From: a bacterium
GTDB lineage: Bacteria > Zhuqueibacterota > QNDG01 > JAFGCO01
Length of the DNA stretch: 64,000 nt
Direction: 5' to 3'
Assembly (NCBI GenBank): GCA_016932575.1
Contig: JAFGCO010000044.1
Coordinates: 20,980 to 84,979, forward strand
Shown in pieces: positions 34,026-43,252 of the stretch (positions are counted from its first letter, which is position 1; every line of letters starts with the position of its first letter). The notes below the pieces were generated by a model. The model was given only the letters and a program-made list of their open reading frames with translations, ran no database searches and was not told the DNA's origin. A program made the translations under genes and the position numbers.

Positions 34026-34339
34026 AGGGGCTGTTTTCAGCCCATAAATTTCATTGACTTATCACCTCCATATCGGGAACTTGTCTTATATTCAATGAAT
34101 TAATCATTATTATTTTTTAATATAAACTATAAATCATTGTTTTTTCAATACCGCTAACTTTCGGTATAATATTATGATGCTTTCGGTCAGCGATAACAAT
34201 ATATATTAACTGAACATATCAGAAGGTAACCTTTTTACCGGTGTTTTTTAATGAATTTTTCATACTGATTATATTTTATTTTAAAAATAGATACTCTTAA
34301 AAGGTTACCTTCTGAACAATTGTCCTTAAAAATTAAATA
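34026..34339 (-). promoter_or_regulatory. CRISPR leader region
   Basis: The AT-rich gap between the first (leader-side) repeat and cas2. Next to the repeat is a hairpin, GGGCTG/CAGCCC with a four-base loop (34028-34043), and the middle is dominated by A/T runs. The leader normally holds the array promoter and integration signals; I did not find a convincing promoter pair. The part nearest cas2 contains an inverted repeat pair listed separately. Confidence 0.6.
34219..34315. repeat. REP-like inverted pair inside the leader
   Basis: TCAGAAGGTAACCTTTT (34219-34235) and its exact reverse complement (34299-34315) enclose 63 AT-rich bases. The arms are the same word as the tight palindromes at 34660, 36455, 37141 and 43006, but drawn apart. 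A similar spaced pair lies at the other end of the cas block (43155-43252). Confidence 0.8.
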
Positions 34340-34630
34340 TCAAACAATCAACAAACCTTCAGGATCATAACCGGCTTTTACACCATGATGTTCAATCCGA
34401 CGTTTCCAGTTCGAACCTAGAAAATAAAAACGAAGGCTGTCTTTTTCGGGTTCATATAATTCCAGAAGCCTCGCTTTTAGTTTTTCCCATTGATCCGGCT
34501 CAAGATTGCACTCGAATACCGAATTTTGCACCCGTTGTCCCTTTCCCACACACGTACGTGCGATTTTTGAAAGACGCTTTTGTCCGGATGGGTGAAGGGT
34601 TTCAACATCATAGCAAACCAACACCATCAT
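34340..34630 (-). CDS. cas2: CRISPR-associated endonuclease Cas2
   Basis: A 96-residue Cas2 (MMVLVCYDVET at the N-terminus, whose Asp is the conserved metal-site residue; QNSVFECNL and SLRFYFLG later). With Cas1 it forms the spacer integrase, where Cas2 is mostly structural. The frame is open for 31 more codons upstream, but that extension reads through a palindrome, and AGGAGA stands seven bases before the ATG at 34630, so this start is chosen. It is the last cas gene before the leader. Confidence 0.95.
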   Translation of the reverse strand: MMVLVCYDVETLHPSGQKRLSKIARTCVGKGQRVQNSVFECNLEPDQWEKLKARLLELYEPEKDSLRFYFLGSNWKRRIEHHGVKAGYDPEGLLIV

Positions 34631-34659
34631 AATGATCTCTCCTGTTAGAAGGTGACCAC

Positions 34660-34696
34660 TTAGAAGGTAACCTTTTTCAAAAAGGTTACCTTCTAA
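34660..34696. repeat. REP-like palindrome between cas1 and cas2
   Basis: An 18-base arm TTAGAAGGTAACCTTTTT, a single central C, and its exact complement. It lies in the 83-base gap between the cas1 stop and the cas2 start. A half copy with one change (AGAAGGTGACC) is just to the left at 34647-34657. Confidence 0.88.
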
Positions 34697-34713
34697 AAAA
34701 CCGTACAAATTCC

Positions 34714-40548: not shown

Positions 40549-42735
40549 TTATACAATAAAATTTTCCTGTGATCTGTTTCCCGCATTCACAATAAGTCCC
40601 AGTTTCTGTGAATAAAGATCTGAATCTTGAAGAACATTAATTCCCGCATAGGCGTCTCCGAGATAACCATTCATTTGTTTTAACTCAACAGGATAAACTT
40701 GAACAGAATATTTTTGTAACTTTCTTAATATGTGGGAAGGATGATCCATATAATTCAAACGGTTTAAAAGCTGTTTTGCTTCCTCTTCTATGGCAATAAT
40801 AATGGGGATCGTCGCGGATCTGATCATTTGGAATTCAGCCAAATCTTCGAATTGAATATTGCCGCGATGAGCGGAACGACATTTTTCTACCACATTGCTT
40901 TCATCCATTCTGTCCTGGTTGAGCCAATAATAATTCAAGAAATACTCATGAATACAGTCAGGCTCAAGCAAGCGACCTTCAAACCTGTTCAGCAATTGCT
41001 GAGCGCATTGCGCTGTCTGGCGAAAATATCCGGGCGGAATGCCGGATTCCGGTTCAAAAACATAGACATTACCGACTTCAAGTTTTCCTTCTCTATTGCA
41101 ACGTCCCGCTGCTTGGGCGATACTATCCATCCCGGCCAAAGCCCGAAATACAATGGGAAAATCGACATCAACCCCTGCTTCAATCAGTTGCGTGCTGACA
41201 ACACGGCAAACATTCGTTTCATTATTTTTCAAGCGGTCTTTGATTTCGGCCAACACCCTTGAGCGGTGCATAGGATACATCAATGCACTTAAATGATATG
41301 CTCCCTCTCCATCCAGTTGATTGAAAATATCCCGCGCCTGTTTTCTGGTGCTGACAACGCAAAGCGCCCTTTTTTCAGACATCATCTTTTCGGCAATATC
41401 CGTCTCATTTTGTTTCCCGAGAAAAGTAACTTCGGTTCGCCGCAAAACCTCAAATGTCTGTCCAACCTGGGTTACGATCTCTCGTACATCAGATAGCCCG
41501 AATGCGAACTCATTTGTTTTATTAAGGGCAGGCTGTGTTGCCGTGCAAAGGATAGTAGATACTCCATAGTTAAGCACCAATTCCCTGATGACTTCCAAAC
41601 AGGGTTTCAACTTCTCGACCGGGATTGCTTGAACCTCATCAAAGATAATTACACTGTTAGCGATATGATGCAGTTTGCGGCATCTTGATGTTTTATTTGC
41701 AAAAAATGAATTGAAAAACTGCACATTGGTTGTGACAACAATTGGAGCCGCCCAGTTTTCCGTGGAAAGTTTATTTTTCCAATCTTTCTCATCCGGTTCA
41801 AAATTGGAATGGTGCTCAAGTACTGCTTCTTCACCAATCATTTCCCGAAATACTTTTACATTTTGTTCGATAATACTCGTAAAAGGAATCACATAAATAA
41901 TTCTCTTCTTGTTATATTTTTTAGCATGTTTTAACGCGAAAGCCATAGATGATATTGTCTTGCCGCCGCCCGTAGGCACAGTCAAAGAAAAAATACCCGG
42001 TTCTTTTTCCGCGGCATGCATACAATCGGATAAAATCGAATCTCTGATTTTATTAACATTTGTAGGATCGGTATTTTCCTGGAACGTTTTCAATTTTGTC
42101 CAAAAATATTGTTGATGTTGTTCGATAATATTGGATTGAGGATTTCGAAATCTCCATTTCTCCGGGTTTATAAATTTTTCTGTATCTAAAAAGTCGGCAT
42201 CTACAAGGCATGAATAAATCATTCGAACAAAAAACTGGAGTTGAAATCCAATCCTATCTTGATCTACTTTCAAAAAATTGATGCCAGGAATTTCTTTGGA
42301 TAATGGTTCAATATGAATCGGCTCAACTTTCTTGCCTAATCGATATTGCAATCCATGTTGAGCATCCTGAAGCCAATTAAGCAAGCCTGTGTGATGCCCC
42401 GTGAGCACATATGCCAGCAACTTGCCAGCATCCCTGGAAGTCTTTTGTGCGTATTGCCCTCCAAATGTGGAGTGATCCACTTTACCTTTATAATGTGATG
42501 AAAAGAAATCTTCAATTTGATTCTCGTGTCTAAGATATGCTTGAAATGCTTTGGATGCCTTTCCCAAATCATGCCACAATCCTGCAAGATACGCCCACTC
42601 TTGCCCTCCAAACGGTCGTGCAAATTCAGCAGCCAGCTCCGCTACATTCTTTAAATGCTCCTCAAGTGGCTGCCATTTTTCAGGCGGCCTTCCTTCAATG
42701 CTATGCGCAAAATATTCCTGTTCATTTGGTGCCAA
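40549..42735 (-). CDS. cas3: CRISPR-associated helicase-nuclease Cas3 (type I-C)
   Basis: A 728-residue Cas3. The N-terminal HD nuclease has His55-Asp56 in [11 protein letters not shown] with a further GHHTG. The SF2 helicase has Walker [10 protein letters not shown] (residues 252-260), the DExH variant DEVQ (366-369), TATQP, and the C-terminal motif VI-like [10 protein letters not shown]. It is recruited by Cascade to nick and degrade the target strand. It is the first gene of the leftward cas operon. The 539 bases upstream have AT-rich DNA and two palindromic elements but no clear promoter. Confidence 0.95.
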
Positions 42736-43005
42736 ATGAATATCCTTCCTGAATTGAATTGCGGTCCATTCTTATTACCTAAAGTGTGCGGACAAAGTAT
42801 GCTTAAATATTTTTTTTGCAGTGCAGAGGTGTATTGATAAGTCGGGAAGCTTGAGTCACATGATGTCGCGTTTTCAGAATACTATAAAGGTGTCGAAATT
42901 TGTTTGAAATTTAGGATGAATTTTTCTTAATGTCAAGTCTGTTTATCGGAAAAAGAATGAATATTGGATAAATATGGTGATAATTGTATTAATAAATAAG
43001 CTTTT

Positions 43006-43038
43006 AGAAGGTAACCTTTTTGAAAAAGGTTACCTTCT
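43006..43038. repeat. REP-like palindrome upstream of cas3
   Basis: Arms AGAAGGTAACCTTTTT and AAAAAGGTTACCTTCT around one G. This is the same element as between the cas genes, here outside the operon about 270 bases before the cas3 start. Confidence 0.88.
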
Positions 43039-43154
43039 GATTTGCTGACTGATTATCTAATAACCAACAATCCCCTGGCATTTGGATGGAAAGATTTTTT
43101 TTGATAATATTTGATAACCGGATTTTATGAAATTCGAGTTTGAGTTATTATTGC

Positions 43155-43252
43155 AGAAGGCAACCTTATTATAGACAGGTTTTTTTAAAACCCGTTCATC
43201 ATTAAAATAATGGATTTATAAGATAAGAATCTTTGAAAAAAGGTTGCCTTCT
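43155..43252. repeat. Spaced REP-like inverted pair at the outer edge of the cas block
   Basis: AGAAGGCAACCTT (43155-43167) and its exact complement AAGGTTGCCTTCT (43240-43252) enclose 72 AT-rich bases. Relative to the other copies GGTAACC is GGCAACC and the partner has changed to match, another compensatory pair. It mirrors the spaced pair in the CRISPR leader. Confidence 0.78.

Follow-up and report, generated by a model that had tools for sequence, protein, structure and literature searches.

In the 64,000-nucleotide stretch analysed here (the window), a portion of contig C65 of a draft genome of 4.41 Mb (G000), a complete type I-C cas operon has a RAYT (TnpA-REP, HUH/Y1) gene between its cas7 and cas4 genes. 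The gene probably belongs to an element of the REPtron or TIRtron type, a RAYT with its cognate palindromes, that was inserted as a unit at the cas7-cas4 junction and resides there as a lodger with its own repeats.

The cas operon and the RAYT gene

The operon runs cas3-cas5-cas8c-cas7-RAYT-cas4-cas1-cas2 on the minus strand, with the leader and an array of 24 repeats behind it. Pfam and PADLOC confirmed cas2c, cas1c, cas4c, Y1_Tnp, cas7c, cas8c, cas5c and cas3c, all on the minus strand, and every cas gene was full length:

32473..34025, minus strand: CRISPR array, 24 repeats of the I-C type, leader at the high-coordinate side
34340..34630, minus strand: cas2 (Pfam, PADLOC), starting with the ATG that ends at 34630
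34714..35748, minus strand: cas1 (Pfam, PADLOC)
35745..36440, minus strand: cas4 (Pfam, PADLOC)
36527..37081, minus strand as the cas genes: RAYT (TnpA-REP, HUH/Y1), 184 aa, NHFH and YIHLNP motifs intact
37175..38287, minus strand: cas7 (Csd2, I-C; Pfam, PADLOC)
38208..39905, minus strand: cas8c (Csd1; Pfam, PADLOC)
39902..40534, minus strand: cas5c (Pfam, PADLOC)
40549..42735, minus strand: cas3 (Pfam, PADLOC)

The RAYT scored 85.8 bits against the NCBIfam family 'REP-associated tyrosine transposase' (NF047646), above the cut-off of 80, and a profile of the RAYT alignment A1 matched the solved TnpA-REP structure 4ER8 at 6e-10. The HUH motif and a single catalytic Tyr with the Y---NP signature are present, and the key residues are invariant across alignment A1. 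None of the PADLOC families matched the RAYT. Pfam, PADLOC and NCBIfam thus agree with the preliminary description, in which a complete RAYT had been placed between cas7 and cas4, in the same orientation, within an I-C operon. When the spacers of the array were compared with the RAYT, the palindromes and all loci examined, the sole match was the array itself.

The RAYT is present in a single copy in the genome, where its paralogues are at most 38% identical to it. An IS200/IS605 insertion sequence was rejected, as near-identical multiple copies were not found. The nearest two RAYTs, in the genomes G015 and G019, displayed 51-53% identity to the RAYT of the window and formed a clade with it in a quick tree (SH-aLRT 91). 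The dN/dS ratio between these two was about 0.04, an approximate value since dS was near saturation, and lower than the 0.11 of cas6, and this comparison of coding sequences indicates that the RAYT is under strong purifying selection in the two relatives.

The palindromes and the probable insertion at the cas7-cas4 junction

Allowing a single mismatch, the word AGAAGGTAACC was detected 14 times in the window compared with 0.54 expected, a count that was not equalled in any shuffle. The arm matches assemble into four 33-bp palindromes and two forms with a long loop, listed here without strand:

34221..34313: long REPIN-like form, two arms about 60 nt apart, between cas2 and the leader-proximal region
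34647..34694: in the gap between cas1 and cas2, 33-bp palindrome (34662-34694) with an additional half-arm (34647-34661)
36455..36487: 33-bp palindrome (ACAAGG variant) on the downstream side of the RAYT, separated by 14 nt from the cas4 ATG; one boundary of the palindrome-RAYT-palindrome unit
37141..37173: 33-bp palindrome on the upstream side of the RAYT, 1 nt past the cas7 stop; bounds the unit at its other end
43006..43038: 33-bp palindrome lying upstream of cas3
43155..43252: long form of the AGAAGGCAACC variant, flanked by the upstream region of cas3 and by a gene with an Smr domain

The short form, a palindrome of 33 bp, reads AGAAGGTAACCTTTTT-N-AAAAAGGTTACCTTCT, and since each of its arms is itself a small palindrome (AAGGT-N-ACCTT), it represents an inverted pair of tiny hairpins. 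In the REPIN-like long form the same kind of arms are about 60-65 nt apart. All forms were computed to fold strongly as single strands, the short hairpins at about -14 kcal/mol with z values of -6 to -7. The pattern search located the palindromes at all the places given for them previously, on both sides of the RAYT, in the cas1-cas2 gap, in the leader and upstream of cas3. The copy in the leader lies about 195 bp from the nearest CRISPR repeat, so that the leader-proximal stretch is untouched. No family was matched in a search of Rfam, and no palindrome was found in the viral contigs searched.

The 4.4-Mb genome contained about 12 further palindrome sites outside the cas locus, mostly a two-arm long form of about 100 bp; this count is a minimum, since a repeat of about 200 bp that also ends contigs contains several of these scattered long forms. 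Exact short palindromes were found six times in the genome, four of them in the cas locus. The preliminary description had reported the word only between 34.2 and 43.3 kb, which holds for the window, save one unpaired one-mismatch word at 32432, and fails for the genome as a whole. Confinement of the palindrome to the cas locus was ruled out by the pattern searches across genome and phylum. The pattern was present in 15 of 82 genomes, and most of its copies in the phylum were outside cas loci. Nine copies occurred in G011, in which no RAYT was matched, and in G015 and G019 the pattern was found only at the RAYT. The repeat of about 200 bp, seen on contigs C11, C12, C15, C22 and C42 of the genome (L009, L010, L011, L013, L016), several of which end in it, encloses the long palindrome form and has outer inverted ends, AACTTTGGCAAATTTT, together with a small GATAG..CTATC/CTGTC hairpin.

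In the phylum, most close relatives of the RAYT have matching palindromes of about 33 bp on their two sides, the sequence of which is usually private to the RAYT, and matched frames were also found at 27 of the 80 nearest RAYTs, drawn from many phyla. The core AAGGTAACCTT is common to the palindromes of the RAYT in the window and of its nearest two relatives (G015 and G019). A paralogue of the window's RAYT has the palindrome AAACCTACGAGGT. The palindrome, previously proposed as the likely substrate of the RAYT, is on these sequence comparisons very probably its partner, although the pairing is not absolute because the same palindrome also occurs in genomes without a recognised RAYT of this lineage. 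Clustering follows the RAYT and not CRISPR: of the eight palindromes in a second RAYT family of the genome, far from cas genes, four are no more than 3 kb away from the RAYT of that family, which rules out clustering as a property of CRISPR, and in another genome (L124) six palindromes surround the RAYT. Local spread near the RAYT is a habit of RAYT-palindrome elements.

Two further arrangements were observed. In G017 a copy of the RAYT's own palindrome is found in frame within the RAYT gene (L114:10125-10157); genes of subclass 2.4 with a palindrome in frame inside the gene were described by Quentin et al. 2018 (PMC6006769). Another palindrome-associated RAYT of the window's genome, on contig C47 (L125:5530-8078), has an HNH-nuclease gene on one side and an AbiE-type antitoxin gene on the other.

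Excision of the palindrome-RAYT-palindrome unit (36455-37173) leaves a cas7-cas4 gap of 15 nt, and the corresponding gaps in two RAYT-less I-C operons of the phylum (G053 and G059) are 32 and 92 nt. The gap after excision is consistent with a clean insertion, and the unit would have entered exactly at the cas7-cas4 junction of a complete I-C operon. The single-stranded palindrome would fold into a 15-bp hairpin, which the RAYT, by analogy with characterised TnpA-REP proteins, would be expected to recognise, cut and rejoin. This activity may have seeded the further copies, the short ones in neighbouring gaps of the cas locus and the long REPIN-like ones genome-wide. Insertion would have been tolerated because all copies lie between genes. 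The cas genes and the RAYT probably share a transcript, and the RAYT has probably stayed functional in the operon, like its relatives in cas operons. It would be a lodger; no known step of CRISPR immunity requires a RAYT.

Residence among cas genes

All three genomes found to contain this RAYT lineage carry the RAYT in a cas operon, more than would be predicted for a neutral lodger. Two operon types and two positions are represented, since the RAYT lies between cas7 and cas4 of the I-C operon in the window and immediately behind cas6 in the two other genomes, G015 and G019; an I-B-type cas8-cas7-cas5-cas3 follows it in G015. A separate RAYT lineage with palindromes of its own is located between cas4 and cas1 in G017. 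Other Y1 genes were found between cas4 and cas1 of a second cas locus in the window's own genome (contig C52), between cas4 and cas1 together with a solo AAGGTAACC palindrome in G031, and beside cas4/cas1 in G015.

Two of these loci displayed additional repeats. In G031, the Y1 gene upstream of cas1 is framed by near-identical repeats of about 150 bp (ATGGAGTACATCGACT...; L179:8329-9410), a different repeat-framed unit in a cas locus. In G015, about 100 bp of the 3′-end of cas6 is repeated, slightly diverged, past the right palindrome of the RAYT unit (L111:10557-10750), and the copy of cas6 on the upstream side runs out within the left palindrome; this duplication may record how the RAYT unit entered.

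The recurrence among cas genes raises the reading that cas operons have recruited the lineage and that it aids the system, for instance by processing single-stranded DNA during adaptation. The three of three genomes of the lineage, with their different operon types and positions, the separate lineage in G017, the Y1 genes beside cas4/cas1 in three genomes (G000, G015 and G031) and the strong purifying selection all argue for it. Nevertheless, 47 of 52 cas1-bearing regions of the phylum had no Y1 gene nearby, the position in the operon is not conserved, and no PADLOC family was matched. The RAYT was also absent from the cas7-cas4 junction of the I-C operons of G053 and G059, and it is not a type I-C accessory gene of conserved presence or position. 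Among 80 wider RAYT relatives scanned for adjacent cas genes, the contig of G015 itself was the only one with such genes, although distant cas types could be missed since the queries were cas genes of the phylum and a Cas1 profile. Within these limits a general link between RAYTs and cas was rejected, and the neighbours of other palindrome-framed RAYTs were mostly ordinary genes.

Y1 genes were detected at 4 of 54 cas1 regions (0.46 expected; window excluded) and at 6 of 40 methyltransferase regions (0.36 expected), and restriction-modification loci thus harbour them no less often than cas1 loci do; these fold values are approximate because the background was taken from Pfam counts and the regions were scored by phmmer and an in-house profile, and the enrichment probabilities serve only as a guide since the tests followed sight of the pattern and the draft contigs are short. 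Enrichment specific to cas was rejected in view of the methyltransferase regions.

The recruitment of the lineage to help the CRISPR system is improbable. Also unlikely is the reading of a lineage with cas operons as a stable recurrent residence, the palindromes or single-strand DNA activity of which serve the operon; this would be the first CRISPR-associated RAYT. The preliminary description had considered the CRISPR locus as a home for the RAYT and had suggested a search of related genomes for RAYTs next to cas genes. As a place of residence this finds some support in all three genomes of the lineage, including the RAYTs directly after cas6 in G015 and G019, but a link specific to CRISPR does not, given the methyltransferase loci, the palindromes clustered around the second RAYT and the single case among the 80 wider relatives.

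The palindromes may alternatively have been selected as operon punctuation, with RNA hairpins that separate, stabilise or terminate the messages of the cas operon and set the balance between effector and adaptation genes. The copies in the gaps on either side of the RAYT (cas7-RAYT and RAYT-cas4), between cas1 and cas2 and upstream of cas3, each of which forms a strong hairpin, would be suitably placed, as would the lone copy of this palindrome found in G031 between cas4 and cas1. However, only intergenic insertions would survive anyway, a terminator scan found no terminator-like site at the palindromes, the RAYT unit is missing from the cas7-cas4 junction in the I-C operons of relatives and most palindrome copies in the phylum are outside cas loci, which makes this role improbable as well. 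That the long forms at 34221-34313 and 43155-43252, which do bracket the cas genes, are the ends of a composite mobile unit made up of the cas gene block is highly implausible, as these forms differ (GGTAACC and GGCAACC arms, unrelated interiors), the CRISPR array is outside the bracket and similar long forms occur singly at about ten other places.

A Y1 transposase domain was also found in frame inside three defence-type genes (L307:1917-5660 in G051, L353:62-3955 in G033 and L354:2094-5915 in G078). The hosts are an HsdR subunit, with the domain between its SWI2/SNF2 and D3 domains, a PLD-SNF2 helicase and a DUF1156 methyltransferase, and these may be either open in-frame insertions or true fusions.

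Relation to known elements

The RAYT with its palindromes belongs to a class of elements already known, here at a location that is unusual and recurrent. In TIRtrons, or TIRYTs, RAYT-like genes are flanked by terminal inverted repeats, some of them self-complementary, with a GGGGWSAS motif in most but not all (Di Nocera et al. 2013, PMC3733652). The element of the window similarly has a RAYT-like gene between inverted repeats that are self-complementary in part or in whole, lie at similar distances (39 and 59 bp) from the ends of the open reading frame and are also present as dimers elsewhere in the genome. It differs from TIRtrons in that each flank is a complete 33-bp double palindrome with a AAGGTAACC core, in its residence in a cas operon and in having the core AAGGTAACCTT in place of the GGGGWSAS motif.

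REPtrons and REPINs consist of tnpA-REP with flanking REPs (PMC2817692, PMC3116915, PMC6006769). Shared with these are the HUH/Y1 protein, a private palindrome family that flanks the RAYT and has copies elsewhere in the genome, the local clustering, the inverted pairs, the low copy number and the diverged paralogues, whereas the approximately 18 sites in the genome and the short forms with a centre of 1-3 nt are different. The 5′ GT[AG]G foot that defines REPs was sought at the palindromes of the window, and as neither GTAG nor GTGG was found, the element was not filed as a canonical GTAG REPtron.

By motif only (NH[YF]H, FQ and YIHLNP), the RAYT resembles TnpA-Y1 subclass 2.1, a subclass with a median of 238 aa and no REP-like sequences near its genes (Quentin et al. 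2018, PMC6006769); the RAYT of the window is shorter, at 184 aa, and has clear palindrome pairs. With TnpA of IS200/IS605 (subclass 1.1) it shares the Y1 fold, the subterminal hairpins and the single-strand chemistry expected, but the signature is Y---NP compared with Y---Q, and the copies are single and diverged and not those of a near-identical multicopy insertion sequence. In a literature search of partial coverage, no published description of a RAYT within a cas operon was found.

Y1 and RAYT genes repeatedly settle among defence genes, in cas operons and even within the reading frames of restriction genes. A functional role of the residence among cas genes would connect single-strand transposases with CRISPR adaptation, although the present data do not require such a link. 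RAYTs that are subclass 2.1-like by motif, and were reported to be without REPs, appear to possess clear cognate palindromes, and the large set of RAYT-palindrome pairs may serve for deriving the rules of recognition.
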